From positions 124,001-188,000 of the forward strand of contig JAPMOS010000045.1 in assembly GCA_027972325.1 (NCBI GenBank): a stretch of DNA of 64,000 nucleotides, read 5' to 3'. Position numbers and translations under genes: made by a program. The notes below the pieces were generated by a model that saw nothing but the letters and a program-made list of their open reading frames with translations, ran no database searches and was not told the origin of the DNA. Positions 3,693-52,852 of the stretch are shown in pieces. This DNA is from Paratrimastix pyriformis. Lineage: Eukaryota; Preaxostyla; Paratrimastigidae. Each line of letters begins with the position of its first letter. The stretch's first letter is position 1.

Positions 3693-4517
3693 ATGGTGTT
3701 CTTTTTCGTTTCCTGTGGTCCGTTTTTTGTCCCTGTATCTGTGCCTCCGACATTTTTTACCTAGATTCTCGATTCTTCTATTATATGGGCCGTGACAAGT
3801 TCGAGAACGAGGACCTCATCAAATACGGCTGGCCTGAAGACATGTGGTCCGTATGCCTTTTTCGTTTTTATCATCTCTCCTTTCAAGGTTCCATGTTGAT
3901 GGGTTTTCTTCTGCCCACGTTTATCTTCGTCCCAAGCCCGGCACTCCTCCCCCCACCATCGACACCCTCCCTCCGGAAATTCTCGAGGAGTGCTGCCAGC
4001 TGGTGAAGAACAACTCCATCGAAGGCAAAAAGGAGCAGTCAGTTTCCGTTTGCTGGACTCCCTGGGCAAACCTCCGCAAGGATGGCGGCATGGATGTTGG
4101 CCAGGTTGGCTTCCGGGACCAGCATCAGGTTTGTGTCTCACATCCGGCGCAACTACAACCCCAGGGCGGACCACATCTAGGTTCGGCACCGCCGAGTGGA
4201 GCGGAATCGCGATATCGTGAAGCGTGTCGAGGCCACTCGCGAGGAACGGCAGGTGAGTGTTGCTGCGGAGCGCAGTGCCCGCGACCGCGAGGAGCGCCGC
4301 AAGCAAACGGAGGCCCGACTGCTTCAGGTCTTTTCTCCGTCTTTCTGCCCCAATATCCCTCCGGCTTTCCCAGGCCCAACGCGACCAACAAGAGAAAGAG
4401 GAGGCCGAACGGCAACGTGAGGTTCGCGAGTATCGCTCGCTCATGACCGAGGAGAACATGCACAGTAACCAGGAGCAGCGGATGACTGCCAAGCAGTTCG
4501 AGGATAGCTTCATGTGA
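3693..4517 (+). CDS. CCDC25: CCDC25 family protein (NFACT-R domain, DUF814)
   Basis: Five exons (3693-3717, 3765-3846, 3888-4128, 4181-4327, 4374-4517) splice in phase to a 212-residue protein, close to human CCDC25 (208). Diagnostic stretches are [21 protein letters not shown], then [14 protein letters not shown] across the second junction, VGQVGF, and a charged coiled coil ending AKQFEDSFM. The first exon encodes MVFFFVSC, matching the family N-terminus MVFYF. The fold is the NFACT-R RNA-binding module. Human CCDC25 has been described as a membrane sensor of extracellular DNA, but in protists the role is unknown. Donors are GTCCGT, GTCCGT, GTTTGT and GTCTTT. Introns are only 41-52 nt. The gene is followed 120 bp later by the proposed CDC48 start on the same strand. 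Confidence 0.93.
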
Positions 4518-4636
4518 TCGGATTTATTGTTTTTTTTCTCGCTAACAATGAACAAGCTCGGACTTGTCAAATACTTGTTGTCTTCAGAGATTCAATTTAA
4601 AGCGTGCAGGGTGAGTCTGGCGCCCATCGGACCCGC

Positions 4637-8013
<3,377 letters not shown>

Positions 8014-8154
8014 GCGGGGCCCCTCTGCTCGCTTTCGTTTTTTTGCGTATCCCTTTTTTGCACAGCCTTGATTTTTTGTACATTGAGACCACAAATGCGA
8101 GCTCTTCGTTTTTGTGCAACAACAGGACCCGCCTGTTTGAGCATTTGGGCCATG

Positions 8155-8895
8155 TTACAACGCGGGGTCCTGGGCAGGGGCGGAGGGACCGCGTCTCTCG
8201 AGCAGGTGCTGCATCAGAGCGGATCCATCCGGCGAGGTGATAACCCCCGAGGCAATGGTCGAGTTATAGAAGGTATCCAGGCGTCGGTGTTGGGCTGTGG
8301 CGGTCCGGTCAAAACAGCCGGGGGTGTGGCAGCGAGCGAACTTCTTTTTTGCGGGCAGACCATCTTCGTATTCGGAGGCCTGGCAGCACATTTCGAGCTT
8401 GTCCAGCTCGTGGACAAACTTCGACTCTGGGGTTGCGGCAGTCTGGAGGACAGGAGTGTTCAGCGAGTCGGGTGCGGGGGAAGGAAGACCTCATACTCCA
8501 CGAAAAGGTTGAGCAGCTCGTCTCCGTTCTCTTTTGGAAGCAAACTGCACATCTCAGCAAAAGCCTTTTGCTCTGCTTGTGATTTGGCCGCAGGGTCGGG
8601 GATCTGGGAGGGGGTCAGGTCACCGATGACGGATTCGGCGAGATCGTGAATCAGTCCCATCTTAACACAATGATCCTTGTTCACACCGGACGGGCAAAGG
8701 ATCATAGCCATCAGAGCGGTCCGCCAACAGTGGCTCGAAACCGCCTCGGGGTTCTGGATGTGATTATGGACCCACCCAGTCCGAGGTAGTGTCTGGGGTG
8801 CGATACTATCGATGTGAGCGGCAGAATTCGATGTGGGAACAGACCTTCAAACGGGTGGCAATGGCAAAGAACTGCCGGAGGCTCTCTGGATTCAT
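8155..8895 (-). CDS. HDDC2: HD-domain 5'-deoxynucleotidase, HDDC2/YfbR family
   Basis: Three exons (8845-8895, 8490-8792, 8442-8155) give 213 residues, against about 204 in human HDDC2. The family hydrolyses deoxyribonucleoside 5'-monophosphates using a metal bound by an HD motif. Visible are the substrate-binding stretch RTGWVHNHIQNPEAVSSH, the LIHDLAESVIGDLTP block with the catalytic His-Asp pair, KFVHELDKLEMCCQASEYE, and a C-terminal helix. An insert of about 25 residues after SEYED (GLPAKKKFARCHTPGCF, positions about 8360-8300) is not typical. Donors are GTCTGT and GTCTTC. The gene is convergent with CDC48 (141 bp between stops) and divergent from the F-box gene, with only 30 bp between start codons. 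It may contribute to dNMP turnover together with the thymidine kinase at 38.8 kb, but that link is inference. Confidence 0.9.
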
Positions 8896-8925
8896 GTCGC
8901 CTGCAGCGCCTTTTTGTCAAACTCA
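8896..8925. promoter_or_regulatory. bidirectional promoter, HDDC2-like / F-box-LRR gene
   Basis: Just 30 bp lie between the HDDC2-like ATG (8895, minus) and the proposed F-box gene ATG (8926, plus). This is the tightest divergent pair in the window. Transcription of at least one gene must start inside the other's coding region. Confidence 0.45.
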
Positions 8926-11264
8926 ATGGTGCGTTGACTCTTGCTCCGCGGTTTCGTGACTTTCTCTTTTAGTTCGAGTTAACAGATCTCCCCGAAGAGC
9001 TTATCAACGAAATTCTCGTCTCGGACCCCACCGTCGCTGCTCACATCATATTCTCATCGGTTTCCCATCACTGGCGTCAAATGCTCAGGAACCGCCGGCA
9101 ACTCACAACATTTGGAAACACCATTGTTGGCGTCAACGTTGTCCCGCTTTTCTGCGGGGAGGGTCTCAAGATTGTGCCGCCCGATCTGCTGACCCTAATC
9201 CTGGCACCGCTCCAGGAATTGGAGGTCCTCGTTCTCGAGAACCTTCGTCTATTCATCAAGGAGAGGTATGCCTTTGATTCCGTTGCGTGGCTCCAAAAGA
9301 CTTTTGGAAACCTGCGAAATGTGCGCCGGCTCGGATTGCGCCGGACCGATGCGATCTCGCCCGTCTTTCAGAACGGCTTGCAGCGCGCGAAGATCTTCCC
9401 CAACCTGGAGTGTCTCCAGTGCGACTTCCCAATGGAATTCTGGCTCCTTGCCATGCGCTTTCCCCTGCTGGTCTCCCTCACCCTGGCACCTGACAGGACC
9501 AGCTTCGACGACATGCCCACCTCCTGCCTGCCCAACCTGCGCGAGCTGGCTATGCAGCAGTTCCGGTGGGACAGTCCAATCTCCCCCACCGCGGAGTTGG
9601 GTCGCTGGGCGCGCGCCTTGCACCACCTCGAGCTGGTCGGCTTCTCCGATGGGGTGGCGGAGGCCCTGGCCGAGGCCCACTCACTCGGCGCGCTCCATAT
9701 CAGCGGGGTCCACTGCACTGATACAGTCCTGGCCACGTTCCTGCTCCAGCGCCGGAACTTGCGATCGCTTTCCATCCATACCGCTGGGAAGGCGGTGGGG
9801 AGCGCCACTCTCAGGGCCATCGCCGCCCATCCGACCATCGCAGACCTGAACCTGGCCCAGTGCGAGGGCTTCCGCATCTGCGATCTGGTGGAGGTGCTCA
9901 AGTCGCTGGCCCCCCGGTTGGTGCGTTTCCTTGCCCCCCACCCGATGTCCGTCACCACGCTCCCCGACATCCGGCTGGTGGCTCCCCTGCTGGAGGATCT
10001 CGACCTGTCGGGGTGGTGGGCCGAGCGGGTCGACCTCACCCTGCCCCGTGCCGGCTCGGTCCACCTGGACGGCATCCGCGCGACCAGCCTTCGGCTCCAA
10101 GCCGACCAGCTGTCCGAGATCTGGGGCCTCGGCACGGCCCAGGTGGACTTCATCGAGCTGCAGTGCCCCCGCCTCGCCGCCCTCCGGCTGATGCCCGACG
10201 GAAGCACCACGAAAAAAGCTGCCTTGCGGGGCCTCTCCACGGCCGTGGACATGCCGGACCTGAAATGCCTCGCGTTGCCGCTCCTGCCCGATGACCAGAC
10301 CCTGTCCCTGCTGGCCGGGTGCCCCGCCCTCAGGGAGATCTACGCCCTGACCCTGGGTCGGACCCACTCTCTGGCCACCCTGCTGCGGCTGCTGCCCGCT
10401 ACCCTGACCAGTCTCGAGCTGACCCTGATCTGCCCGCTGCCCTCCGGCGGCGACGACGACGGGGCGGCCCGGCTGGCGCTGCCCAAGCGGCTGACCAACT
10501 TCTACCTGCGCTTCATCAAGGACCTCCCGGAGGATGAGGGCGGTGCGCCGGTGACCCTAGTCGTGGAGGCCCCTCAGCTGGCCCAGTTCTTCATGCGGCG
10601 GGGCCCCGTGACCCGGCTGGTCCTGCGCAGCCAGGCCCTGGCAAACTTGCGCCTGGACAAGTGCGCCTGCCTGCAGGACGTGGCCCTGCCCGGGCCCCTG
10701 GTGGAGCTCCAGTGTGCGGGCTGCCGGCCGGACTGCATCGGCCCATTGCTCGCCCAGGCGGCCGGCCCGACCCTGGCGGTGGTGCGCCTGGGCGGGTGGG
10801 CGCCTCCGGGGGCACTCCTCGACCCGGCCGAGGGCGCGGCGTGGTGTCGACTGCCCCCCGGGCTGGATGGCCTCCACACCCTGGAACTGACCCGGTTCGG
10901 CTGGCCCCGGCTGTGTCTGGGGCCCACCCGGGACGCCCCGGCCCGCGCCTACCCGGCCCTGACGAGCCTGCGGGTACTCAACTCGACCGGGCCGCACACC
11001 GTCGACCTGCGCGGGTGCCCCGCCCTGGACACGATGGCCTTCGAGAGCTGCCCCGCCCTGACCGAGTTTCTGGTGCCGCCCGGCGGCCTGCCCAGCCTGA
11101 CCAGCGCCCGGTTCGTGAGCTGCCCCGAGCTGAGCAACGCGGTCAAGATGACTCTGGGGTACCAGCCTCTCATGCCCCCGGACAAGTGCACTGTCTGCTT
11201 CGCGCGCCGGCCGGCCCCCGACCAGCGGTTCGGCGCAATCCTGGCCGCCGAGCTGGACGGGTAG
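8926..11264 (+). CDS. F-box / leucine-rich repeat-like protein
   Basis: A 2.3-kb exon (8973-11264) without introns encodes FELTDLPEELINEILV followed by SSVSHHWRQMLRNRR, an F-box signature, then about 700 residues of irregular leucine-rich repeats (for example LEVLVLENLRLF, LRNVRRLGLRR, LRVLNSTGPHTVDLRGCPAL). The proposed start is an ATG at 8926 directly followed by donor GTGCGT, so exon 1 would carry only the start codon and exon 2 joins at TTC in phase. That gives about 764 residues. F-box proteins recruit substrates to SCF ubiquitin ligases. The substrate is unknown. GC content and codon bias rise steeply toward the 3' half. The gene resembles the minus-strand gene at 46.3-48.7 kb in plan. 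The alternative first ATG inside exon 2 (9081) would lose the F-box, so I prefer the spliced start. Confidence 0.75.
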
Positions 11265-11646
11265 GGTGGCGGGGCCCACCAACCGCCTCCTCCCCTCCCT
11301 CCTCCCCCTTCCCTCCCCCTCTCCCCCTTCCCTCCTCGCGGTGTGATGCTAAGTTCCGAGTGGACGAGCGGTGCCCATCTTGCGGGATTGTATGGGCAAC
11401 GGAGATGTCAGAAAGGGGAGAGGAGGGGAGAGGCAGACGGCCCCGGATGGGAAGGAGAGCAGGGTAGGGGTGGGGGAGTGGGAGGGTCGGAATTGGGGTG
11501 AGGCGGCGGTGGATCGTACCGGAGGTGAGGCAGCCCGTCATGGCAGTGAGACCATCCCCCGGCAGGGGCCGGGGGCCACGGCTCAGAGGGGCCCACCCCC
11601 GGCCGGAGGGGAAGCAGCCCGCCAGGGCAGCGGAGACCATCCCTCC
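11265..11646. other. convergent intergenic region
   Basis: Space between the stop codons of two converging genes. It holds a CT-rich tract (11280-11340) and purine-rich sequence (11400-11490). I see no gene. It should contain both 3' UTRs, but I recognise no clear polyadenylation hexamer. Confidence 0.6.
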
Positions 11647-14108: not shown

Positions 14109-14142
14109 ATTCCGGTTTTCTGGCACTCACTTTGAACAACAG

Positions 14143-18545: not shown

Positions 18546-18769
18546 TGAAAGACCCTTTGCGAAAACAACCAACAATAAGAAATCGGGAAACCCCCAAAAG
18601 AGATCGAGATCATCCCAAATCCCCCCGCCAAACAAGCAGGGCGCGCCTCCCCCCATACGACACCACAATACAATTACGACGAGACGGCCGGCAGTCCTTG
18701 GGTCACGCACGGGCCCGCCGGACGGCAACAAAGCTTGGCGCGTGCCGCAAGAGAGGCACCACCGTCAGC

Positions 18770-19747: not shown

Positions 19748-20145
19748 ATGTCGGCCCCTAAGGTTGAGCTTTACACCCCCCGCAAGTGGTCTGCTTTCGA
19801 TTTTTCTTGGCCAACTGAATTCGAACGCGTTATACCTTTCCCCCCTCGCCCCGCGTCTCCGCCCACTTGTTCTTAATCCTTCCAATACCATCCGATCTCG
19901 GGCACTCTTCTTGCTCAAATTCACGCACGATTGCATTTAGCTCCGCCACCAACCGCCTGATCATCCCCACTGATCACGCTTCGGTTCAGATCAATGTCGC
20001 CGTCCTTGACGAGAACGGCCACGTCATCCCCGGCCGCTATGAGACCGTTACTCTCTGCGGCATGATCCGCTCCAACGGTGAGGCCGATGCCGCCCTGAAC
20101 CGTCTCTGCTCCGATCTCAAGCTCGCCGAGAACCTCCTTGACTAA
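19748..20145 (+). CDS. RPS21: 40S ribosomal protein eS21
   Basis: Two exons (19748-19788 and 19941-20145) encode 81 residues. Exon 1 gives MSAPKVELYTPRK plus two bases of Cys. Exon 2 continues SATNRLIIPTDHASVQINV, then GRYETVTLCGMIRSNGEAD. This matches the eS21 family in length (83 in human) and in the YVPRKCSATNR-II block. The protein sits on the solvent side of the small subunit near uS2 and is needed for late 40S maturation. The donor is GTCTGC, the acceptor GCATTTAG. The intron is 152 nt. Codon use is strongly biased to C-ending codons, as expected for a highly expressed gene. Confidence 0.95.
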
Positions 20146-20271
20146 GCTCTTTCCTTTGTGGCTGTCTATGAGCGCTTGAGAAAATCGGGGCTTGGCTTCT
20201 CTTTCCTGTGGTCTCAGAATTCCATGTCCTTTTCGGCCTGCGTCCTCTTTTTAAAAAAAAACATCCGTAAA

Positions 20272-29356: not shown

Positions 29357-30352
29357 ATGGACTATTTTGCGCTGCTCCCCGACGAGTTGGTGGAGCTGAT
29401 TCTTCGACGGGCTGAGCTGAAGACTTTTTGCAAGGCTGCTGTTTTGAACAGGCGATTTTCATCGATTGTCAGAAGAGACGATCTCTGCTTTGCTCGTGTT
29501 CAGAGCGTAAACAGTGCCCTCCGCACTCTTCCTCCTCCATTTCGGACTTGGGCTCAGTACTTGGCGCAGTTTTTCGCTTTTGTTGATGTCGTAAAACCCG
29601 ATAACCCGTTCGTTTTCTTTGAAATCGATCTCGATGGCCGCCCTGCGGGAACCATCGTCATGGAACTCTATGCGCATAACACTCCTAAGACGGCAGAGAA
29701 TTTCCTGCATATCTGTGTTGGCGATACCGTTCGCGACGATGGCGAGGCACGAACCTACGCAGGCTCCCCGTTTCATCGGGTCATCCCTGGTCAGTGCATT
29801 CTCGTGACATTATTCTCACATTATCCGTCTTTTTTCCGCGGCAGATTTCATGGCACAGGTTCGGTTTTTTCCCCCCTCTCCGGACCACCAACTCAACCGT
29901 CTCAGGGTGGGGATATCGTGAGCCACGACGGACGGGGTAGCGATTCAATCTTTCCGGAGAAGGTCTTCTCCTTCCTCCCCTCCTTTCTCCTCTCATCCGA
30001 TCGACCCCGGGGCTCCCTTCCTCGGCCCTCCGCAGAGGTTCAAGGACGAGAACTTCAATATCAGACACAACAAGCCGTTCCTCCTTTCGATGGCCAATTC
30101 AGGTCTGGACGAGTACCCGAATATGGCGTTTATACATTCCATCTCTTGGCATTTTTAGGCCCCAACAGCAATGGCTGCCAGTTCTTCATCACCTTTACGG
30201 CCACGCCCTGGCTGGATCGGCACCATGTCGTATTCGGGCAGGTTGTGAACCCGGATGGCCGAGTCCTGCTGAAGCTGATCGAAACGAAGGGTTCGGGCAG
30301 TGGAAAGCCAACCTGCCCGATTACCGTGACCCGTTGTGGACAGCTTTTCTAA
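29357..30352 (+). CDS. F-box-cyclophilin fusion (peptidyl-prolyl isomerase)
   Basis: Five exons (29357-29789, 29845-29858, 29906-29962, 30036-30102, 30159-30352) give 254 residues. Residues 1-45 form an F-box: MDYFALLPDELVELILRRA, then LNRRFSSIVRRDDLCFARV. A cyclophilin domain starts near residue 80: FFEIDLDGRPAGTIVMELY, SPFHRVIPDFMAQGGD (split by a 14-nt exon), NKPFLLSMANSGPNSNGCQF and FFITFTATPWLDRHHVVFGQV. The catalytic Arg of FHR-V-P-F, the FMxQGGD loop, the Phe of QFFITF and the Trp-Leu-Asp site are all present, so isomerase activity is likely. An F-box joined to a cyclophilin would recruit a prolyl isomerase, or its client, to an SCF ubiquitin ligase. I know of no common metazoan or fungal protein with this arrangement. 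Donors are GTCAGT, GTTCGG, GTCTTC and GTCTGG. Confidence 0.9.
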   Translation: MDYFALLPDELVELILRRAELKTFCKAAVLNRRFSSIVRRDDLCFARVQSVNSALRTLPPPFRTWAQYLAQFFAFVDVVKPDNPFVFFEIDLDGRPAGTIVMELYAHNTPKTAENFLHICVGDTVRDDGEARTYAGSPFHRVIPGQCILVTLFSHYPSFFRGRFHGTGSVFSPLSGPPTQPSQGGDIVSHDGRGSDSIFPEKVFSFLPSFLLSSDRPRGSLPRPSAEVQGRELQYQTQQAVPPFDGQFRSGRVPEYGVYTFHLLAFLGPNSNGCQFFITFTATPWLDRHHVVFGQVVNPDGRVLLKLIETKGSGSGKPTCPITVTRCGQLF

Positions 30353-30884: not shown

Positions 30885-38349
<7,465 letters not shown>

Positions 38350-38760: not shown

Positions 38761-39427
38761 ATGGACACACCTTCCGTCCTCGGACCATGCGGCCGTCTGG
38801 AGTTGATCCTTGGGCCCATGTTTTCCGGGAAATCGACCGAGCTTCAACGCAGAATTCGTCGCCATCAAGCAGCCAAACGTCGCTGCCTTGTGATCAAGTA
38901 CAAACGGGATACCAGGTATACTCGGGAGGAGTGCATCTGCACGCACGATCAGGCAACCATGTCGGCCTTTTCGTGTGATACGCTGGCCGATGCCGCCCGT
39001 TTTGTCTCTGAATACGATACGATTGGAATCGATGAGGGGCAGTTCTTCCCCGATATCGTTGAATTTGCCGATCGCCTTGCGGACGCTGGCAAGATTGTGA
39101 TTGTTGCTGCGCTGGACGGTCGGCTCTTTGTCAAAATGGACGGGGACTCACTGTTTTGTAGGCACATTTCAACGGCGACCTTTCAATGATATCCTGGCTC
39201 TGATTCCTCGCGCCGAGAATGTGGTGAAACTTTCTGCCATTTGCCAGATTTGCAACTCAGATGCAGCCTTCAGTCGACGCTTGACTGCCGATCAGGAAGT
39301 GGAACTCATTGGCGGTGCCGACAAATACATCGCAGTTTGCCGCAATTGTTATCACAAGACCATTCACAATACGACCACTGCGGCAGAAAACGAAAAGATG
39401 TCTGCCTTTAGAACTGGTCGGTTTTGA
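38761..39427 (+). CDS. TK1: thymidine kinase, TK1 type
   Basis: Two exons (38761-39118, 39162-39427; donor GTCGGC, acceptor TTTTGTAG) give 207 residues. P-loop LILGPMFSGKSTEL, RCLVIKYKRDTRY, the DExQF Walker B stretch TIGIDEGQFFPDIVEFA, AALDGTFQRRPFNDIL (the lasso region, formed across the junction), and the zinc site CQICNSDAAF ... CRNCYHK. The substrate loop GGADKYIAVC is intact. The enzyme phosphorylates thymidine for dTTP salvage in the cytosol. The C-terminal tail ends KMSAFRTGRF. I chose the ATG at 38761 because it directly precedes the conserved fold. An in-frame ATG-less extension upstream has no homology. Confidence 0.94.
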
Positions 39428-40389: not shown

Positions 40390-41607
40390 ATGAAGACTGA
40401 CGGCCCACGCGCGTTCCCGCCTGGCCCCCAGCAAGGTGGCCAGCCTGCTCCGGCAGACTCTGAACCTATGGGTGTAGATCATGTCGATCGGAAGGTGTGG
40501 CTGCTGAAAATTCCCCGCGCTGTCGCCGACTCGTGGAGAAAGAATGGGGAGACACCAGTTTTGGTGGGGAAAATGCATATAGAAACGAGTCCAGGATCAT
40601 CTTTGGTGCGTCTCGATCCCAATCCGGCACTCGCCGCCACTCAGCGAATTCCGTCCATCGACATGGATCACACAACCAGCCCCGCCTCGATGGTGTGGTT
40701 CTCCACTGTGCCCGAGATCCACGTACCACCACCTCCTCCGAGACCACATCGGAGTGGCTTCAGGAAACGAAAGGAGCAACCGGAGGCTCCACCCCCTGAG
40801 CCACAGCTCCCTCCTCAGTGTATCTCGCTGGAGGGAGTCGTGGGCAGCCGTTTCGTGCCGAAGCCCACTGCTCTTGCCGTTGATTATATCGAACGGGCTG
40901 TTAACCAGAGATTGGAGCCACAGATTCAGGTCGCGACGAGCTCCCACGCGCGTGTCGGTTCCCAATATCATTTCTCTCTCCCCTCGCATAGATGGCCGGC
41001 GATGTCCGGCCCGACTCCGTGATCAAGATTACGACCGTCACCGTCTGCGACTTTCATCGCCTTTCTCCTGCACTCTCAACCACCACCCACCCGACTATCT
41101 CCTTCCCCCCAGACCGGACCCGCAGCAGCGGGCACCAAGAGGCGACCGTCCTCTCCGGTCCACCGCAAGGGGAAGGAGGAGAAGCTGAAGAGAGCCCGGA
41201 CGATGACCAAGGAGGGACTGGAGGAGGTCATCACCCAGCTCTTCAGTCAGCAGCCCTACTGGCAGCCAAAGCAAATCATGGACCGGACCGACCAGCCCCA
41301 CGTCTGTCCTTCTGCCCTGCATCAATCCTTCGCCCCTGACAATCGATTCCATCGGTCTCACACCACACCCCGATTCTCCGCTTGGTCTGGGTGGGGGCAG
41401 TCCTTTGTGGTCGAGGTTCTGCGAAATCTCTGCATCCCCGTCAAGAAGGGGCCGCAAAAGGGCTCCTGGGAGCTGCGCCCTGAGTATCGGGCCCCCTCTG
41501 CCCCGGCACCCGCCACCGCTACCAGTCCTGCCTCCCCTGCTGGAGGGAACCCGGAGGGCGACGATGACGGTGGCGATGATGATGATGGGGGCGACGATGA
41601 CGAATAA
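40390..41607 (+). CDS. GTF2F2: transcription initiation factor IIF subunit beta (RAP30)
   Basis: Four exons (40390-40953, 40992-41042, 41113-41301, 41401-41607) give 336 residues. The N-terminal dimerisation domain starts DRKVWLLKIPRAVADSW, continues GKMHIE and later ISLEGVVGSRFVPKP. The basic linker KRRPSSPVHRKGKEEKLKRA is followed by the winged helix TKEGLEEVITQLFSQQPYW and LRNLCIPVKKGPQKGSWELR plus PEYR, as in human RAP30. TFIIF binds RNA polymerase II and stabilises the preinitiation complex. Extras are a proline-rich insert (PPPPPRPHRSGF) in the dimerisation domain and an acidic Asp/Gly tail (EGDDDGGDDDDGGDDDE). Donors are GTCGGT, GTCTGC and GTCTGT. Start taken at ATG 40390. Upstream in-frame sequence lacks an ATG. 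Confidence 0.92.
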
Positions 41608-41976
41608 TCGGCGGATGAAGTCGGTTTTGGGGTGGATGATTGGGTGTTGCTGTCTCCGCTGCTGCGCGCTGCTGCCTCCGCCCGAACGACGACAAAGATG
41701 ACTCGCCTTTCACACACCTCATCCGGGATGATGCGGTCGCTCCCAGAGAGATAGTCGATGTATTCTACCCGCAGACACAGGCAAACGAGATTGTTACTCG
41801 GCCAGGCCTTTGCGGGGCGGTCCATCAGAGGGGAATCGCTGACCAGGATCGAACGACCCAGGGTAATGGTGGGCAGCGGCCCTCCGGCCTCGTGGGCCTG
41901 TATTGGGGAGGACGATGCGATGCCGGCTCTCACGCCTCTGCGAGAACAACACGGGGTTGATGGCCTGCCGGCCAAA
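41608..41976. other. intergenic region, possible unassigned coding sequence on minus strand
   Basis: 369 bp between tandem plus-strand genes. The minus strand is open across most of it (encoding for example LRVEYIDYLSGSDRIIP), but I recognise nothing and found no splice pattern, so I do not call a gene. Confidence 0.4.
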
Positions 41977-44900
41977 ATGAACCGTAGCGAATTCTCTCAT
42001 GTTCCCTCGCCCCCACAGCCGGGGAAAAGGGCATTGCAAGCAGCCCAAACACGCCTTGGCGATTTATCAAGCTCGGTCTGCCCTGTTCCCCAACGATGGC
42101 TCAAGGCCTATGTTTCTCTTGGCGTTTTGTAGGTTTATCTCATGACACGCAAATGCCCCCAGCCTCAGACTCAGCCTCATCTGGTTGCTTTAAAGCGGAT
42201 TTGCTGTGCCGACTTCGAAGAAGCCAATCAACTCCTTCGGGCAGGATTCGCTCTTGTCTCACTGCAGCATCCAGGCTTTCCACAATGCTTTTCTGTTTTC
42301 CTCGATCCTCCAGACCCCGATGGTTCCTTGGTTGTTTGTGTCGTGATGGAGGCATGTCGGGGTCCCTCCCTCGCAGAGATGCTTCACCAACCCTGTGAGG
42401 AGCCCTCGTTGACCCAGGACGAACGAGAGACCATCGCTGAATCACTCTTGGAAACGTTGACTTTCTTGGAGAGCAAGGGAATCATTCATAAAGACGTCAA
42501 GGTTTGTTGTCTACAGTACCCTGTTCTTTGCTCACCACCCCGCCCCCTCGCAGCCTTCCAATGTGCTCTTCCGGGTGCGCGCGCACCCCATTCTGGTCGG
42601 GCTCCTTTCTTCGCCGCACCTCTACGAGGACTATCCCCTGGGGCAAGCCGACTTTCTCGCACCCGAGGTGGCCCTGCATCCCCCACGGCCCACCCCACGA
42701 ACGCCCCTCTTCTCGGCCGCCCTGACCATCGTGGCCACCCTGGCCGGCATCGAGCTCCCTCAGGGCCTCCGTGCGACCCTGGGCGCGGGATCCGCACGTC
42801 CCTACGCGTGGGAGCTGTGCCAAGGCGGGCAGGCGGAGGCGCTGTATGCACGCGTCCGCGCCTGCCTGCAGGCGAGCGGACTCTGCCCCCGGCGGATCGA
42901 CCTGCTCGTGGCCATGTTGGCAACCAACGCCGAGGAGCGCCCAACAGCAGCCCAGGCCCTCGAACGGTGGCGGGTTCAGGCCAACACAGCCGACCCAACC
43001 CAAGAAACAGCGGTCTGTTCCTCCATCCACCGTCCCCCCCCCCCCCCCACTCTTCCTCCCATTCTTGTATCGTTGATCCATTTTTTTTCTCCTCTCCGTT
43101 CTTCTTCTGTCCATGCGCAGGTTCTCGCACCCCCTCCTACATCCCCGTCACCGCCAATAGCAACACCTCCCCCTCCCCTCCCCGTCGTTGCTCCTGGGCC
43201 TGCTGGAGCCGACCTTCCACCAACGCCGGCTGCTGACTCCCCAGCAACATCGGATATCCACACGCCCCCATCAAATGTGCCCTCCTCAACCGAAGTCCCG
43301 ATTGCGCCACCGCCCGCCCCGCAAGTCGGGTCCGCCCCTCCGCCTTCTGAGGGCGCCCCCACGGCCATCGCTTCTGCCAAGGAGCGCAAGAAGAAGCGCC
43401 GCAAGGACAAACGCGCCAAGAAGGAGAAGGGGATGGGGAACGAGTTGGAGAAGGGGGTGCCACCCGAGCCAGACCCAAACCAGCTCCTCGCCATGGCTCT
43501 CGAGCTCTTCCAGGGGCCTGAGCCCCTCTCGACGCCCGCGGATGTCCGCCAGTGCATCCGGATGAACGCCACTGTGCTGACGGCCCTCCTCAGGCGCCCC
43601 GACGGCCCCTCATACCCATACATCTTCAACATGATCGAGCGGCATGTGCGCCTCGCCGGCAGCCTTCCCGAATTCCTCGACATGGGCAACGCGCCTGTCT
43701 TGGTCCGCCTGCTGAGCGACCGGCAGCATGGCATTGAGGCAGCCCGAGTGATCGGCATCATTCTTGTGCAAGACGAGCAGTTGGCGACGCCCTTCATCGC
43801 GGCTGGGATTGTCGATGCCCTCCGCAACATCGCCGACAAGCCTGAGATGCCGCTCCTGGCGGCCCTTCTGCCGGCCTCCTCCCTGCCCGGCCTTGCGGAG
43901 ACCCTGGTGGAACTCCTGCACCAGACGCCCGTCATCTCGGCCAACTCCGAGTTTGTGTGTCACCTCTACGATGCCATTCTGCGCGGGTTGTCCGACCCGG
44001 ATGTTGCGGCCGCCTTCATCCAAGTGGGTATGATACGGCCCCTAATGGCCCACCTTGTCGCCACGGCCACCCTCCAGCCGGTTCCCATCTCGCTGACCAA
44101 ACTCCTCGCGTGCTTCGCCACTCTGGCCAAGGTCCAGGACCCATGGACCAACGCCACGCTGGCTGAGGCCGGGATTGCAAAGCCCCTGGTGGAGATGCTG
44201 CGGACCATGCCGCACAAGTCCTCGGGCTGGTCGGAGAAGGACCAGATCTTGCTTGCGCGGCTGCTGATCAGGCACTGCGATTGGGAGATGCCATCCATCG
44301 CCCGACCTTCCCACGAGGCCGGGCTGTCCGCGGCCATCCGGCAGTGCATCCTGGACCTGGACCCGCGCGCCACCTCAAACATCCTGTTTGTGGGGGTGCT
44401 CTTCGGGCTGCTCGAAGGTGTGTGGCATTCCGGGGTGACGAAGGAGGCGGCCTTCTTTGAGTCGGGCCTGCTCCAGAGAGAAATCGCGATCCTGCGCGGG
44501 ATAGCTGCGCGCGACGACGCCAACTTGATCTGGCAGAATGCCCCGACTATGTGCGGATACGGCGGATACCTCCGCGCGGCTGTGACGGGCAGCCCCGCGG
44601 CGGCCAAGGAGCTGCTGGACCTCGGGATCATCGAGAACTGCCTCGATCCGCTGCTTCGGCTGCCCCCCACCCACGACGTGGTCACCCATTACCTCATACT
44701 GACCATCTCCGCCCTCTGCGACCACATCGCCCAGACCCCGTCCTCTGGCCCCTTGACTCGGATGCGCACGGGTCAGTTGCCCGAGTCCGTCGCCGCGTGC
44801 ACCGCCAAGTCCGGGTTCGCCACCGCCCCGCTGGATGCATGCGCGGCCCTGGCCAAGGACCCGGAGTGCGCCGAACGGATGGCCCGGAGCCTGGGCCCCC

Positions 44901-45628
44901 GTGCCGTGTCGGCTCTTCGCACAGACAGCGCCTCCGCCGACCGCATTATGCAAGCACTGAGGGCCTTTATGCCGCACCCCGACGCCATGGCACATTTCCA
45001 CGACCTGGGCCAGTGCCTCGTGCAGGCCTTCCGCGAGTACGTGTCCCAGGTGGGCCCGCTTCGACCGAGCGGCACAGTCACCACCTCCATCCTGGAGGTC
45101 CTGGTGCACAGCGGCAAGGCCGTCATCCGGACCATGGTGAACGAAGGCCTCTCGGACCTCCTGACGCGCGTCCTGGCCGAACCCGCCTACTCCAGTGCCC
45201 CTGCCGACACCGGAGGGGAGCCCGGGTCCGAACCCTTTGGCGAGTGTGCTCTCATGGCCTGCGCCTTGTGTGTCATACCCGAGTTTCGGGAGCCCTTCGT
45301 CCCGCTGGCTGGCCGGGTGGTGGCCCTGATCCGACAGGCCCTCAGCCAGAAGCTCAAGACCACAGCCTTCACACTCACGGCCCTTTTGCATGGGATTCTC
45401 GCCTGCGACGGAGAGACGATTGACTGCGGGCGGGCGGGCGAGGTGATGGCGGCCGGCGTTGCGCCGCTGCTGATTCAGGTGTCGCACGAGATGCGCACCC
45501 GTGGCGACACGGAGGGCATGAAAGCAGCCACACGGATCATGGAGGCCCTCACCCAGACCGGCAACCCCGAGGCCACGGGGGCCTTCCGAGACACCCTCAC
45601 AAAACAGTCGACAGTCTTGCCCGGCTGA
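41977..45628 (+). CDS. pseudokinase-like domain plus long ARM/HEAT-like helical protein
   Basis: Four exons (41977-42075, 42133-42501, 42554-43012, 43121-45628) splice in phase (donors GTCTGC, GTTTGT, GTCTGT) to 1144 residues. N-terminal kinase fold: degenerate glycine loop RLGDLSSSVYLMTRK, VALKRI lysine, catalytic loop GIIHKDVKPSNVLF, then ILVGLLSS where DFG should be, and FLAPEVAL. Glycines of the loop and the DFG metal-binding Asp are missing, so it is probably a pseudokinase. A Pro/Ala linker and a basic stretch (ERKKKRRKDKRAKKEKG) precede about 750 residues of helical repeats (for example VLVRLLSDRQHGIEAARVIG and VVALIRQALSQKLKTTAFTL) reminiscent of ARM repeats. A scaffold role is inferred. 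The linker intron contains a poly-C tract. Confidence 0.82.
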
Positions 45629-46346
45629 GCGGGCAACGCCATCCACCACGACCGGGCGGCACCGCCTCTCCCAGCCATCACTCGCGGGTCACTTGGCCCG
45701 GGCCCCTCCGGAGTGTAACACATGGCACGACTTTCAATCTTGGACTTGTCGCTTGCGCCCTCGCAAATACCCCGCATGTTCTTCCCCCCTTCCCCCTTCC
45801 CCCCTCCCCTCCCCTCCCCCCTCCCCCCTCCCCTCCCCCCCTTCTGTCCCTGTTCGCTGATGCGGCGTTTGATTGTTCTGGAGGCGGAAGGAGAGGGGAT
45901 CTGTTGGCAGTCCGCCAAAATGAGCCGATCGAGTGATTTTGCCCACTGGGGTTCCCTCGGAAGGACCACGCCTGAGTCAACATGGTCCAGCCAACCAGCC
46001 GGACCCCCGGCCTCATGTCCCAGGTGGGTTCGTGGACTCGGGTTCTCAAGCCACGCAGTTGGGAGGAGGCCAGCAGTACCCGCTCTACATGCGCAAACGG
46101 CGCCGGGGGGGGGGGGGGGGGGCGGCCTCGGGGCCCGCAGTTTAGCAGGCGGCAGCTCTCCGCACGCCCCAACAACCACTGAGCGCCCCCGCCCCCGCCC
46201 TGGAGTGTAACGCATGTCGAGAGACACAAGTGATCTTTCTTCTTGAACTTGTCGTCGCGGCGCGCCCTCGCAAATACACAGCGTGTTCGCTGCACGGGGG
46301 CCGGATCACGACGAAGATTTTCTGTCGAGACCGAGAATGCGTCTCC
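45629..46346. other. convergent intergenic region with two diverged direct repeats
   Basis: 718 bp between converging stop codons. Two related blocks (45708-45790 and 46198-46290) share GGAGTGTAAC-CATG, CTTGTCG and GCGCCCTCGCAAATAC in the same order. A CCCCTCCC repeat (45785-45840) and a poly-G run (46107-46123) lie between them. No gene is seen. Confidence 0.6.
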
Positions 46347-48749
46347 TCAGCAGTACCCCGACCTCGAGAGCGGGTTTCTGAGGGCCCGCTCGGGCGGCTG
46401 GACGGCATGCAGCCAGAGCTCGGCCAGGGATGGCGGCTTCTTGGACAGGATGGACACCGGGACCCCATCCAGCAGGTTGGCAGCCATCCACGGGGAGCTG
46501 AGCCCGTTGCGGGCCAGACTGACCCCGCGCAGGGAGCAGTGCCCGTCCTCCCCGAGGATGCGCTCGCGGAGGCACCGCAGGGCCACGTCCCCGAAGGCCG
46601 GCGCCCCGTGGATGGCCAGCTGGACCAGAAACCGAAATCGGGCAACCAGCTCCGCAAAGGCCTGCTCGCTCGGCTGGGTGACGAGGCATTCCGCATTATC
46701 CCCGGGCGGCCGAAAGACATCCACCAGCGAGAGCGACCGCAGCCAGCTCCCGCGGAGCACCTCGAGCACGTCATCAGTGACCAGACCCGCGCAGCTCTCG
46801 GGGGCAAAGCCCGGGCCGGCTCCGGGCGGGGCCAACGGTGGTGGCGCGCCGGGATTCGCAGCCGGACTGCAGCATTCCTGGAGATGCAGGACCCGAAGGC
46901 GGCGGGCTGTCTGCAGGAAGGCCATCAGCACAGGGATCCGCACGCAGGACCGCCACAGGGCCAACGTCTCCAGGCGGGGCAGGGCCGCGCCCACGGCGGC
47001 CAAGTCGAGAGGGTCGGCCGGGCTGCCGCTCTGGAGGATGAGCACGCGCAGGCGGGGCCACCCCGAGCAGGCGGCGCACAGGCCGATCGGGCTGACGGAC
47101 ACATTATCGGTGCCGAAGACCTGCGGGGAAAAGATGGAGTGCAGAGCCGGCCTTGTGAGGCCACAACTGCCGTCATGCCATCACAAGTCATCATCGCCAT
47201 CGTCAACACCAACACCATCATCATCACCACCACCACCAACAACAACAACATCGACATCGACATCATCAACATCATCAACATCAACATCATCCAATCATCA
47301 CCATCATCACCCATCCTCGGGACGAACCTCGAGGGCGGGTGTGCCGGCGGTCAGGGCGCGAGCCTGGGGCTCGGAGATGGTGCAGAAGAGGCCCCCGGCC
47401 AGTCGCAGGTGCTCCAGCTGCCGGCATGGGCACAGGGCGGCCAGGACCGCGTCGAGCTGGGGAAACAGGCGAGCAGGCGCCGCGGATGAAGTACCGACAC
47501 GCACAAACACAAACAGCCCCGCCCCCCCGGGGGGGACGACAGGGAGGCCCAAACGCCGATCAATGAGAGCGGACATCATTCTGGCTGGGGGCGGTGTAAT
47601 TGAAGGTTCGCAGCCCGAACCGGGCCGCTTCGCAGAGGAAGGCGGGGAGGCGGGGCTGGGGGACGGGCATTTCCCCACAGCCGGCCGAGGTGAGCCACTG
47701 CACCTGCTCCAGCAGCGGACACGACCTGGCCAGGGCCGATAGCAGCTCGGCCGCCCCCGGGCCAGCCACGACGGCCAGCCGGCGCAGAGATTGAAGGGCT
47801 GGCGCGCAGGCGAGAAGCTCGAGGTTTGCAGCTCTTGAGGCAACCTGCACCGGGTGAGGGTGGTGGTGATGGGGGGGATGGGCCACATGCTCAGGAGGGA
47901 GGAGGTGGGGGGGGGGGGGGGGGGGACGGGCCGCCCACGAACCACGAGGCTCAGCTCCTCCAGCTGGGGGCAGCGCTCCTGGATGATGGCGAGGAGCGGG
48001 CCCAAACGCGCCGCCTCGGGCGCGAGGTGGAGGGACCGGAGCTCATGGGGGACGGTGCCCAGCATCTCCGGGGTGGAGTTGGCGCCGTCCAGGCGGAGGG
48101 TACGCAGAGCGGGGAAGTGGGTGAGGTTGAGGCCTTTGGTCGGCCCGCGCAGGGAGAGAGAGACCAGCCGAACCAGGTGGTGCACGGCGGACCCGTCAAG
48201 GCCGTCTGCCTCCAGCTCTTCCAACTGGGATGGTAAGGCCCCGCCCCGTTCGAGGGCGAGGGTATTGCCATGACATTTCAGACTCGTCAGTTGCCAAGGA
48301 AGGACCCGCACGTGGAGGTTACAGTGTGTGATGTCGAGCTCTTTGAGGGAGCAATACTCGAATTCCTCCATAACCCGGGAGGTGAGATGGCATCGGCGGA
48401 GAGAGAGGGCTTTCAAACTGTGCCGCAAATGGAACATGAGGAAAGTTACACACGAGTTGGTTATGTTTGCGCCTTCCAGTGTCAGTGTGAGTCTTTCCAC
48501 ATCACCCTGAACACGGATCAGGGAATTGATTGCCCAATCGTTCCAGAGTTCTTTGAAGCTGACATAATCGCAAAAGGATGACACTAATTTGTGAAAGCGG
48601 GACGATGTCTTCGAAAGGACCGCATAACCACCCAAATTTAATTGGGATTTGGTGCGCTGAAAAGGGACCCAAAAAATGAGACGCTCGAAGATTTTGAGAG
48701 TGACATCATCAGAAAGTTGGTCAAAATATGCCTGTTGATCTGTTGCCAT
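46347..48749 (-). CDS. F-box / leucine-rich repeat protein
   Basis: Four exons (47943-48749, 47575-47844, 47328-47456, 46347-47120), all phase 0, give 659 residues. The N-terminus YFDQLSDDVTLKIFERLIF ... YAVLSKTSSRFHKLV fits an F-box. LRR-like units follow: LKALSLRRCHLTSRVMEEF, SLKELDITHCNLHVRVLPW, LRTLRLDGANSTPEML, LEHLRLAGGLF, LRVLHLQECCS and WLRSLSLVDVF. The predicted role is substrate recognition for an SCF ubiquitin ligase. It shares plan and style with the gene at 8.9-11.3 kb and may be a paralogue. Donors are GTTCGT, GTCCGC and GTTCGT. Introns hold poly-C (sense) and an ATC-rich repeat at 47205-47300. Confidence 0.8.
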
Positions 48750-48859
48750 GACGGGGCCGAGACACCACACGCCCAAATGAATAATGACAGGTTGTCACAG
48801 GTGAGGCTAGAATTTTGGTTGAAGAAACTTTTTCAGCCGGCCGTTTTCTTCCAGGCGAT
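48750..48859. promoter_or_regulatory. bidirectional promoter, F-box-LRR / coiled-coil gene
   Basis: 110 bp between divergent start codons at 48749 and 48860. It includes a pyrimidine-rich stretch ending TTCTTCCAG just before the plus-strand ATG. Confidence 0.4.
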
Positions 48860-50422
48860 ATGGATCCCGCAGAAGACGAATCTCAGGGAGCCGAAGAGGC
48901 GGCTCGCGCTCGGGCAGAAGTTGCAGCCTTGGAAAAGTGCGGCCTGACATTCTTTTGCCCACAACTCCTGATTTGTTTTGTTCAGGGATCTGCCACAGTC
49001 TGGGGCTCCTGCGAGCGCCACGATGCCGTCTGGGGACTCCGAAGAGCCTCCTTTCGCCGACGGCCCTTCACAACTGAAAGGTTCGAAGCGCGATCACACT
49101 CTTTTTTTTTCTTCACTTGCGGTGTAGAACTGGAGGACCAAAACAATATGCTCCTCAACCAACTTGCTCAAACAAAAAAACAAATCGCAGATATGGAGAA
49201 GCAGATGCCCGGATACAAGCCAGAACTCGTTCCTGAAGGCACTGATCTTCGGGAGGCCCGCATTCTGGAACTTGCAAAGAAGGTCTTCACCTCTCTTCAC
49301 TGCGGTGTGCTTGAAGATTATTATTTGTGTAGAATCGCGGATTGATGGTTTCCTTCCAACGGGAGCGCGACAAGGCGGCCAGCCTCAGCAAGGTCGGTCG
49401 GCCTCCCCCCGTCCACTACTTCGGCTCACCGTTCGCCGGCAGATTTGCAAGCAACTCCAAGGGGAACTGAAAGCCATCAAAGAGAGTGGTCTGTTGATGG
49501 TTCAACTGGATCATCCCATCCACACACACACACACCCCTGCCCCCCCCCCCCCCCCCTACTCCCAGACCCCTCTGCGGCTCCCAGTGCCCAGGCCACGGA
49601 GGCTGTGTCGGTCGAGCAGGACTACAAAGACAAACTCGCCCAGGCCAACGCTCGAGTTGCCGACCGGCAGCACCAGATCCAGGCCCTGAAGAACGACCTC
49701 GCCCGACACCAGGTCTGGCTGGCGGCGTCACGACCCCCCATGACCATCTCCCTCCCGTTGGACCGGGTGGTCTGCAGCGGGCCCTTCTTCGGGAGGTTGG
49801 CGACGTACCCTTGGCCAAGGTCCTTGAGGAAGGCACGGGCGGCTGGCGGGGCCGAGCCCAGGAGATCTCGCTGCTCAAGGTCCGCCCGCCCGCCCGCCCG
49901 CCCATCTGCTGGTCCTCATCCGGCCGCTGCGTTCTTCTTCGTAGTCCCAGCTGAAGGAACTCCGCGCCCAGCCTGCATCACCCCAGGCTGCTCACACCCC
50001 ACCGACGGAGGAGGATGGGCTCCCCGCCGAAGCGGGTCCTGTGAAGGGTCTGCCTCCCCCCTGGTGAGGTCCGCTCACCCGTCCACGGCTGTGCGTTCTT
50101 CGGCTGTGCGGCGGGCCAGACTTCGACGTGGAGCACAAGCGGATCGTCTCTGCGGCCGACCGGAAGAAGGTCCAGGAGATCGAGCAGCTCCAGCGGCAGG
50201 TGCAGGACCTCGCGGCCGACCTCGCCGCCGCCAAGACCAAGAACGCCTCCCTCGTGGCCCGAACCAGGGTCTGGAGCGGAGAGGGGGAGTTGGAGGAGGG
50301 GCGGGGGCGGGGCAGTGGAGTGGATTGGCATCCAACGGAGTTGCAAGGAATGGTGAACGGCGCCTCACACTCACCCACCCACTCACCCACTCACTCGCTC
50401 CACCCACTCGCTCCACACACTG

Positions 50423-50456
<34 letters not shown>

Positions 50457-51040
50457 CCCGCGGCAGATCCTGGAGCAAGACAACGCCCAGTTGCGGCAGC
50501 GCATCGGGCAGGTGATGACCAAGACCGAGCACGACAGCGAGCTGGTGGCCACCCAGCGCGAGGCCATTGGGCTCCTCCAGAAGGAGCTCGCCCAGGCCCA
50601 GGTCCAGGCCGCCCAGGCCACGCAAGCCGCCCAGGCGGTCGCCCAGCAGCGCGGCGACAGCAACAGCCCGCCCGTCTCTGCTTCATCGCACCCGCCAAGC
50701 GCCGCCGCCTCACGGGATGTCTGTTGCTGCCCCCCGTCGGGCCCGTGGCTGGGCGGCGGGCGCCTTATCCTCGCGTCTTCTTTGCAACTGCCTGCAGGGC
50801 GCGGGGGCCTCCTTCCTCGGCGGCAACGGCGAGTCCGGGGCTGTGACCGGCGAGCCGAGCGAGATGGTGCTGCTGCAGGAGCGGCAGATCAGCCGGCAGG
50901 AGCAGATTATCCGCTCGCTGCGGGCTGAGTTGGAGGCCCTCCAGCAGGCGCCCCTCACCCCGCCTCTGCTGCCCCCAGGGATGGTCGCCGCCGCCGCATC
51001 GGCCGCCGCCGCGGCCCTCGCCCCGCAATACCATCACTAG
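48860..51040 (+). CDS. multi-exon coiled-coil protein, function unknown
   Basis: Start MDPAEDESQGAEEAARARAE at 48860. Eleven or so exons follow, nearly all helical: LEDQNNMLLNQLAQTKKQIA (49130), LMVSFQRERDKAASLSK (49340), ICKQLQGELKAIKES (49443), VEQDYKDKLAQANARVADR (49612), RALLREVGDVPLAKVLEE (49777), SQLKELRAQPASPQ (49946), RKKVQEIEQLQRQVQDLAAD (50160), NAQLRQRIGQVMTKTEHDSE (50485) and LLQERQISRQEQIIRSLRAE (50870). An Ala-rich end AAAASAAAAALAPQYHH precedes the stop at 51040. Most donors are GTCTG, GTCGG or GTTCG. The protein looks like a rod of more than 300 residues. Golgins, kinesin tails and EEA1-like tethers share this look, but no end domain allows assignment. It resembles the gene at 14.1-18.5 kb in exon style. 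Confidence 0.7.
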
Positions 51041-51326
51041 ATTCATCTCCCTTTTCACTCCTCCTTCCACCTCCAATTTGGATTGTGGCGGCTCTGCCGC
51101 TATTGGTTGTTTTGTTAATTTCGGCTCTCGCTCTCTTGCGTCGCTGGCGGGCGGGAGCGAATGTGAGCGTTCTGGTTTCGGTTTGTCTGCGAGCGCGTTT
51201 GTGCAATTGTTGCACATTCTGCGGGGCGGGAGCTCTCGGACGCAAATCGAGTCCCATCGGAAGTCCCACCGGGAGAGGCCGACTTCCGTTTTTTTCCGCG
51301 TCGCCGCGTCTTCTTCGTCCCACCTG

Positions 51327-52852
51327 ATGGCGCGCCCACTGCGTTTCTATCTGCTGATGCCGTTCGCATTCATTTTTGTTCTGGTAGTCTGGGAGGCTGT
51401 CCAGGGCTACCCACTATGGCGAATTCTGGCTTGGGCATTCCCTCAACACGAACTCATCCTTCTCATCCCTGGACTCCTCATCCCATTCGCACCTCCACTC
51501 CTCAGACTGCTCGACGAGGTTGTGGGGCATCCAATCACAAGGCTTTTTGCCCAACTTGGCTGGTTTTTGTTTGGATTTTTGTTCATCGCCCTCTGGGTAT
51601 GCATCGTTTTTGAGATCGTTTTTGCGGCGTGGCCTGCCTTCCATGAGAACTTTTCGTATGTCGGCTCCATCACCGTTACAGGGGTCGGCGTCCTCCTGTG
51701 CCTGATCGCTTTCATCAATGCACATCAGATCCGAATCGTGGAACACACCATCCGAACGTCTGGGCGCTCGTCTTTTTTTATTTCGTCTGAATTTCTGGGG
51801 GGGTAGTTCCAAGGTCAGGCGCCCTGTTCGACTGGTGCAGCTCTCGGATATCCACATCGGGTCGCGGTCGCCCTCATTCCTGAAGCGGGTCGTGGATCGG
51901 GTTAATCTGCTCAACCCCGACCTGGTCGTTGTCACGGGTGACTTCACCGATGCCCGCGGGGTCGGCCCTCGGGGTGACATCGACGGCTTCAACGAGATTC
52001 GATGCCGCGGGACCCCCACACACACTCCCCCGCTGGAGAAGAACTCCCCCGCCCCGGAGGAGTCCGCACCCCCCAAGGAGCAGGAGGCATCCGTCTATGC
52101 GGTCTTCGGTAATCACGATTTTATGAGCGGGGCAGGGCCCCTGGGAGATAGCTGCCACTCGCGTCTTCCCAAGGTCCGTGCCCCCCTGCATCATCCCATC
52201 CCTCATCCGCCGCCCCGCCGCCCCCACAGTTCTCGCTGCTTCGCGATCAAGTTGTGCGAGTGCGCATCCCCAGCCCAGCCGCATCGCCCGCACACGTGCC
52301 GAGCCCCGACCCGGGGGTGGTGCTGCAGCTGGTCGGGCTGGACGACAGAAACCGGGGTGCCGACATGGTCCGGGCCTACCGCGGCCTGCGTAACCTGCTG
52401 GATGATGACCTCTACACGGTGCTGCTCTACCACCGGCCCCATGGGGTCGAGCAAGTAGGCGCCCTGGGTGGGATCGATCTTTTCTTGGCCGGTCTGTGGG
52501 CCATCCTCATTGGGGCCCAACTCAGACAATAACCCCCAGGTCATACACACGCCGGCCAGATCTTCCCCTTCAGCCTGCTGGTCAAGATCATGTTTCCCTA
52601 CGCGGCGGGGCTCTTCCATGTGAAAGCCCCCGTTCCCGCGACCACCACGGCCGTTGGCCCGGCGTCCACCGAGACCACCCCGATCAATCCCAGCAAGCAG
52701 CTCCTTTACACGAGCCAGGGCACCGGGACATGGGGTCCCTTGCTCAGGTCTGATGATAGTGTCCGATTCCCGATTTCCAACTTGACCAAATTCCGTCGAT
52801 TAGGCTGGGAACACGAAACGAGATCACCCTCTTCAACATCGTGCCTGCTTAA
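51327..52852 (+). CDS. membrane-anchored calcineurin-like metallophosphoesterase
   Basis: Five exons (51327-51769, 51807-52173, 52230-52491, 52540-52747, 52804-52852) give 442 residues. Four N-terminal membrane segments (for example LMPFAFIFVLVVWEAV and LFAQLGWFLFGFLFIALWV) precede the phosphoesterase core. All metal-binding blocks are present: VQLSDIHIG (DxH), VVVTGDFTDA (GDxxD), VFGNHDF (GNHD), VLLYHRPHG and LAGHTHAGQIFPFSLL (GHxH, completed across a junction), then YTSQGTGTWGPLLRLGTRNE. The plan matches bacterial YkuE and metazoan TMPPE. The substrate is unknown. An acidic Pro/Glu-rich insert (PPLEKNSPAPEESAPPKEQE) lies between the second and third metal motifs. Donors are GTCTTT, GTCCGT, GTCTGT and GTCTGA. 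Confidence 0.88.

Follow-up and report, generated by a model that had tools for sequence, protein, structure and literature searches.

In the free-living protist Paratrimastix pyriformis the usual start of an intron, GTAAGT, is replaced by GTCTGT, and the 5' end of the U1 snRNA genes carries two substitutions at the positions that face the altered letters. The 5' end of U1 is nearly invariant and is treated as almost universal; here, U1 and the large set of donors that it reads have covaried as predicted at each of the two changed letters. Judged from the gene sequences, a change is seen in U1 only among the recognition strands of U1, U2, U5 and U6. Because U1 has changed and the recognition elements of U6, U5 and U2 are intact, we favor a compensatory recoding, across the genome, of the pairing between U1 and the 5' splice site, and assign it a probability of roughly 0.9. 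Statements on the genome as a whole rest on predictions and on homology at a few loci, with transcript support from one gene.

Donor sequences of the introns

The window (the whole stretch of DNA that was analyzed, 64,000 nucleotides, C388 124001-188000) comes from a genome of 56.06 Mb in 495 contigs, with which the published P. pyriformis genome (56.6 Mb, 633 scaffolds, 60.9% GC; PMC10703272) is consistent. The introns of the window were placed afresh by a spliced aligner that scored every GT alike, with no preference for donor context, and the counted set consists of 21 introns in six genes (Table 1): nine in CDC48, four in the cyclophilin, three each in CCDC25 and HDDC2, and one each in eS21 and TK1. 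CDC48 was aligned with two guide proteins, P0001 (91% identical) and P0002 (84% identical), which gave identical junctions, and the other five genes with human guide sequences. All 21 introns are GT-AG by requirement of the aligner. Adding the six introns of a TM9SF-like gene fixed by a cDNA-derived protein, in whose alignment GC and AT donors and AC acceptors were also permitted, gives a set of 27 donors.

In the window, +3 is C in 17 introns and T in 4, and never A or G; +4 is T in 15, C in 3, G in 2 and A in 1, and +5 is G in 18 and T in 3. Over all 27 donors, the counts are C 23 and T 4 at +3, T 18, C 6, G 2 and A 1 at +4, and G 24 and T 3 at +5, with G at -1 in 25. Compared with all GT sites of the contig, the probability is 3e-8 for C at +3 in 23/27, 7e-9 for C or T at +3 in 27/27, and 1e-8 for the enrichment of G at +5. 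The nine CDC48 introns begin with GTCTG (six), GTCCG, GTTTG and GTTGG (one each). Neither GTRAG nor the U12-type donor, RTATCCTTT, occurs among the 27 counted donors; with GT-AG ends, and with U1, U2, U5 and U6 all present, the introns are of the U2-type spliceosomal class.

The observation of an unusual donor is therefore confirmed. The preliminary description had reported C at +3 in 31 and T in 5 of 36 introns, and G at +5 in 32, and the independent placement agrees with it, giving 17 and 4 of 21 with no purine at +3, and G in 18/21 at +5. The GT-Y-Y-G consensus that it proposed holds at +3, where all 21 introns have a pyrimidine, and is slightly too strict at +4, where T dominates and A or G occurs in 3/21.

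Table 1. Introns of the counted window set, in window coordinates, with their donors (exon/intron)
Feature	Position	Strand	Donor	Remark	Basis
CCDC25 intron	3847..3887	+	gtg/GTCCGT		spliced alignment, human CCDC25
CCDC25 intron	4129..4180	+	cag/GTTTGT		spliced alignment, human CCDC25
CCDC25 intron	4328..4373	+	cag/GTCTTT	without +5G	spliced alignment, human CCDC25
CDC48 intron 1	5273..5355	+	aag/GTTGGT		same junction with P0001 (91% identical) and P0002 (84%)
CDC48 intron 2	5610..5662	+	aag/GTTTGT		P0001 and P0002 guides
CDC48 intron 3	5951..6031	+	atg/GTCTGG		P0001 and P0002 guides
CDC48 intron 4	6314..6355	+	aag/GTCTGC		P0001 and P0002 guides
CDC48 intron 5	6730..6784	+	gtg/GTCTGT		P0001 and P0002 guides
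CDC48 intron 6	6791..6860	+	cgg/GTCTGT		P0001 and P0002 guides
CDC48 intron 7	7027..7159	+	atg/GTCTGC		P0001 and P0002 guides
CDC48 intron 8	7291..7350	+	atc/GTCCGT		P0001 and P0002 guides
CDC48 intron 9	7580..7800	+	gag/GTCTGT		P0001 and P0002 guides
HDDC2 intron	8295..8360	-	atg/GTCTGC		spliced alignment, human guide
HDDC2 intron	8443..8489	-	gag/GTCTTC	without +5G	spliced alignment, human guide
HDDC2 intron	8793..8844	-	aag/GTCTGT		spliced alignment, human guide
eS21 (RPS21) intron	19789..19940	+	gtg/GTCTGC		spliced alignment, human guide
Cyclophilin intron	29790..29844	+	ctg/GTCAGT	+4 A	spliced alignment, human guide
Cyclophilin intron	29859..29905	+	cag/GTTCGG		spliced alignment, human guide
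Cyclophilin intron	29963..30035	+	aag/GTCTTC	without +5G	spliced alignment, human guide
Cyclophilin intron	30103..30158	+	cag/GTCTGG		spliced alignment, human guide
TK1 intron	39119..39161	+	acg/GTCGGC		spliced alignment, human guide

The closest named matches of the spliced CDC48 protein are preaxostylan (Paratrimastix eleionoma, 84-85%; Blattamonas and Monocercomonoides, 76%), and a search of the genome for a second close CDC48 gene found none; on these grounds P. eleionoma was rejected as the source. Between the GTCTGT introns 5 and 6 this gene has an exon of 6 nt (window 6785-6790), placed identically by both guides, that codes for part of the conserved WFGE motif. The cyclophilin gave no match in the protein database at a strict cut-off.

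Eight introns were omitted before the count. The first intron of HDDC2 (GTCAG) and the last of TK1 (GTCTG) lie at protein ends that match poorly, and the six of TFIIF-beta (GTTGT, GTCCA, GTGGT, GTTAA, GTCCG and GTCTG) were omitted because the alignment was too weak for junction placement; one of the eight has G at +3. The guide for SPCS1 gave no usable match, and the re-placement left out TMEM86, RRP7, the phosphoesterase and the pseudokinase. The alignments of SNRNP27K, METTL16 and U1C with human guides contain forced introns and were left uncounted; they gave four donors for SNRNP27K (GTCGC, GTCTG, GTCTG, GTCGG), ten for METTL16 (GTCCC, GTCGG, GTGTA, GTGTG, GTTGG, GTCTG, GTCTG, GTGCG, GTCGG, GTCTG) and one for U1C (GTGGA). 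Four of these junctions, which by eye lie within conserved motifs, read GTCTG, GTCTG, GTCTG and GTCGG.

A gene with cDNA support

About 8 kb beyond the window lies a TM9SF-like gene, with the domain PF02990, which we take to be that of the TM9SF family. It is 100% identical, over 98% of the query, to a EukProt protein from GAFH01001029.1; GAFH01 holds the assembled cDNAs of strain RCP-MX of Trimastix (Paratrimastix) pyriformis (PMC3596361), and the match identifies the organism as this species. The evidence for the junctions is the protein translated from the cDNA, not the cDNA letters, and from this protein the removal of six introns in this one gene is evident. Their donors are GTCTG (three) and GTCCG (three), and GT-AG won in 6/6 although GC and AT donors and AC acceptors were allowed. 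Within 30 bases either way, 2 to 12 junctions per intron would yield the same protein; in 6/6 introns the reported junction is the sole GT-AG choice that gives the cDNA-derived protein, and none of the choices is GC-AG. Transcripts with canonical donors nearby had been named beforehand as the result that would speak against the unusual consensus; one gene was examined, with no such donor among its six, all of them GTCTG or GTCCG.

U1 snRNA genes

A search of the genome with the U1 family RF00003, in which the best 41 of 992 candidates were scored, gave among those 41 eight U1 loci that match the family over its full length (positions 1-166, best E 3.7e-13). Their best score, 60.2 bits, is under the curated Rfam gathering cut-off of 69.5 bits, which is a curation threshold, and we call them, as a gene prediction, a putative divergent U1 homologue. 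All eight of these full-length matches begin ATACAGACC: the start reads AUACAGACC versus the usual AUACUUACC, the 5' end reads ATACAGACCTTG versus the conserved consensus of the model, AUACUUACCUG, and ACAGACC stands in place of ACUUACC. In other words, UU at nt 5-6 is changed to AG in 8/8 loci, with nt 1-4 and 7-10 untouched. A pattern search that left nt 5-6 free and tolerated up to three mismatches recovered exactly those eight loci, all with AG, and its reversed-pattern control gave 0 matches; the three loci that were rescanned (L001, L007 and L008) showed no other Rfam family at E<=0.01. One locus is on the window's own contig (C388:215803-215958), and a scan of viral contigs for U1 found nothing. 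The first interpretation offered for the donors by the preliminary description, a lineage-specific change in U1, is supported by A5-G6 standing for U5-U6 in all eight loci found.

The motif CCCATAA is present at -59 or -60 upstream of 8/8 U1 loci, and also upstream of the U5 (7/7) and U6 (4/4) loci found, at a nearly constant position within each family. The upstream DNA of the U1 copies differs except for short shared pieces, which include AATTC directly before the start (8/8), CTCAAG near -32 (6/8) and a T run. A TATA-like stretch occurs at -32/-33 in the four U6 genes and is absent from U1 and U5 (L001-L019); the arrangement suggests one snRNA promoter element serving two polymerases. As for the body of the predicted RNA (L001-L008), stem-loop II is without the usual U1A-binding loop sequence, and the Sm-site-like region reads AAUGUUUGG.

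Other snRNAs and splicing proteins

The four U6 loci found have an intact ACAGA box (ACAGAG) and keep GAUACAGAGAAGAUUAGC in 4/4, so that a change in U6, another suggestion made beforehand, is not the cause. The U5 loop CGCCUUUUAC is likewise intact, with CGCCUUUUACU kept in 7/7 loci found, and so is GUAGUA of U2 in the three loci read, with scores up to 160 bits.

A METTL16 homologue is retained (L040, contig C332). It has the motif CMCNPPFF, the solved structures that it matches best are those of U6 A43 methyltransferases, and against NCBIfam it has a weak match, far below the cut-off, to the related bacterial RlmF. A homologue of SNRNP27K is retained as well (L042, C9). Loss of METTL16 as the cause of +4U is rejected, since the homologue is present; its retention together with a near absence of +4A is a puzzle for the rule, drawn from yeasts, that links METTL16 loss with +4U. 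The zinc finger of U1C (L041, about 1480-1700, C86) reads SILHHERGARHQEN and differs in several residues from the human SVRKTHCSGRKHKEN, possibly including some that lie close to the U1:donor helix.

Pairing of the donors with U1 and U6

Against the ideal donor AAG/GUCUGU, U1 with A5-G6 forms 9/9 Watson-Crick pairs (-12.4 kcal/mol), whereas canonical U1 forms 6/9 (-5.1 kcal/mol). The 5' end of the P. pyriformis U1 is complementary to the organism's own donors, with a mean of 6.7/9 pairs over the 27, and the mean duplex energy is -9.0 kcal/mol for A5-G6 versus -4.3 for canonical U1. When all 16 dinucleotides were tested at nt 5-6, AG gave the most paired positions (6.96) and, after GG, the second-best energy (-9.0 kcal/mol versus -3.7 for ancestral UU, which ranks near the bottom); G at nt 5 gives a slightly better energy than A.

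In U1, which now begins 5'-AUACAGACCUU, nt 3-11 are the complement of AAG/GUCUGU. G6 would pair with C at +3 (T at +3 would wobble) and A5 with T at +4, and G1, U2, G5 and U6 of the intron would pair as usual with C8, A7, C4 and A3 of U1. C at +4, found in 6/27 donors, has no pair with U1 A5 or with U6 A43. Because the changed U1 also pairs at +3 and +4, a donor read mainly through +5G, the other way out considered earlier, is not needed. Donors have drifted genome-wide to GTCTGT and GTCCGT. We infer that the predicted U1 RNAs are transcribed and pair in this way, and that +4U arose first, with C at +3 and the two changes in U1 coming later.

The word UCUGU (+2 to +6) is the exact complement of the U6 ACAGA box, with which the donors form a mean of 3.96/5 Watson-Crick pairs, compared with 3 for GUAAGU. 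Once handed over by U1, UCUGU would meet a perfect complement in the unchanged box, and U1 and U6 would read the same word. The two RNAs now share AUACAGA. Because U1 already began AUAC..A, this match amounts to two letters only (1 in 16), and an origin of the new donor word driven by U6 is therefore plausible rather than demonstrated. A bolder version, in which this is the first natural genome-wide rewriting of U1 and its donors, driven by the invariant U6 box, with U1 converging on AUACAGA and METTL16 perhaps modifying A5 of U1 in addition to A43 of U6, is put forward tentatively and is, as a whole, unlikely to be right.

One competing account, which deserves a minor share of belief, differs in the driver only: GC mutation pressure would have moved +3 to C and U1 would have followed, with no selection for pairing with U6. 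The genome is GC-rich (52-74% GC over the window in 2-kb steps), yet the GT sites of the contig have G at +3 more often than C (0.42 versus 0.33) and G is found in 0/27 counted donors, and +4 is dominated by T, not C.

It is very improbable that U1 pairing is unimportant in this organism, with U6, U5 and proteins choosing the donors, as has been proposed for Entamoeba, and the U1 5' end drifting freely. The donor word does fit the U6 ACAGA box very well, as described above, and stem-loop II of U1 lacks the usual U1A loop sequence. A precedent for pyrimidines at +3 and +4 exists in Entamoeba, which has GUUUGU donors and in which no U1 has been found (PMC6085484, PMC13292270). However, a dinucleotide at nt 5-6 that pairs best of all 16, next to unaltered nt 1-4 and 7-10 in 8/8 loci, is not the outcome that free drift predicts, and all eight retain the shared upstream element.

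Still less credible is a second, canonical U1 that is absent from the assembly or was missed, the AG type being a variant that serves some of the introns. In its favor, sequence may be missing from the assembly, scoring was confined to the best 41 of 992 candidates, and one diplonemid has two U1 types (PMC12621601); but a canonical U1 should match RF00003 at least equally well and none is among those 41, the search for near copies gave AG only, and there are hardly any canonical donors to read (GTRAG in 0/27 counted and 0/107 predicted, 2.4 expected). Finally, that the donors are misplaced and the real sites canonical, a few bases off, is almost certainly wrong: if GT-AG is waived, 1 to 11 further positions per junction of the cDNA-supported gene would give the same protein, but none of them is GT-AG or GC-AG in 6/6 introns, the CDC48 junctions are identical with two relatives, and the idea is already contradicted for one gene.

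Comparison with other systems

P. pyriformis shares much with the canonical U1/GTRAGT system: a full-length RF00003 homologue, a donor-complementary 5' single strand, GT-AG ends, -1G and +5G. It differs at nt 5-6 of U1, which read AG instead of UU, and in its donors, where +3 is a pyrimidine and +4 is T in most. A search of the open-access literature for an earlier report of an A5-G6 U1 or of a GTCTG/GTCCG donor found none.

Among 230 budding yeasts and 10 outgroups, ACUUACC of U1 is given as invariant in the 227 and 9, respectively, in which U1 was detected, and the same study describes a switch to +4U that accompanies the loss of METTL16, with U1 unchanged, and suggests that +4U might be compensated by A at nt 5 of U1 (Parker 2023, PMC10581693). 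P. pyriformis resembles those +4U yeasts in having mostly U at +4, the Watson-Crick partner of the central A in the ACAGA box of U6. In the yeasts, according to that study, U1 ACUUACC and U6 ACAGA are invariant where detected and METTL16 is lost (PMC10581693), whereas in P. pyriformis nt 5 and 6 of U1 and +3 of the donors are changed, and METTL16 and SNRNP27K are kept. The change of nt 5 to A that was foreseen as compensation for +4U exists here, along with a second change for +3. P. pyriformis can be regarded as an experiment of nature in which compensatory mutations test the pairing of U1, and as a system that separates the demands placed on +3 and +4 by U1, U6 and METTL16.

The oxymonad relative Streblomastix strix shares +4 U and +5 G with P. 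pyriformis and differs in having A at +3 (PMC1501061); the usual U1 contact at +3 would be expected to remain there. The +4U may accordingly be older, with C at +3 a step taken by Paratrimastix. The GUUUGU of Entamoeba also combines pyrimidines at +3 and +4 with good complementarity to U6; there, however, no U1 snRNA is known (PMC6085484, PMC13292270), whereas in P. pyriformis U1 is present and compensated. The donor code can change, then, without loss of U1. A changed 5' end in a U1 gene also occurs in the diplonemid S. specki, which has two U1 genes: one starts with a run of C, the second has a conserved 5' end, and both are reported to pair comparably with the canonical donors of that organism (PMC12621601).

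Gene prediction

Ab initio gene finding was used as support only, because its predictions hold many false introns. The HMM gene finder learned from the CDC48 gene and gave every GT the same score. In a 258-kb stretch minus CDC48, GTCTG was the commonest donor, with 14 of 98 predicted introns (3.4 expected, p=8e-6), and GTRAG occurred once (2.3 expected). In 24 loci (75 kb) outside C388, after two rounds of self-training, GTCTG was again at the top with 14 of 107 (2.6 expected, p=4e-7), and GTRAG was found in 0 of the 107 (2.4 expected). Since the opening bases of the CDC48 introns had gone into the intron model, the runs were repeated with the first 10 intron bases masked and self-training left out: GTCTG was still at the top, both in the 258-kb stretch (12 of 97, p=1e-4; GTRAG 1) and in the loci outside C388 (10 of 40, 1.0 expected, p=3e-8; GTRAG 0).

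With a canonical donor matrix as the starting point, GTCTG was already the commonest choice in the first pass (14 of 65), and the final set of 440 contained GTCTG 70, GTCCG 54, GTGAG 13 and GTAAG 4. A flat matrix ended with GTCCG 137, GTCTG 110, GTGAG 13 and GTAAG 1 of 609; the GTGAG and GTAAG of these final runs are read as false introns. A flat donor combined with many iterations drifted toward G at +3 (C 211, G 185 of 513). Standard donor models could mislead gene finders in the Paratrimastix lineage.

Two features of composition were also noted. On the + strand, C strongly exceeds G at positions 54001-62000 of the window, with a GC skew between -0.21 and -0.48 in 2-kb steps. Near and between exons that by eye resemble an MCM helicase, long simple repeats at C388:47000-47100 and 47400-47550 translate to runs of serine or proline, which can lead ab initio predictors astray.
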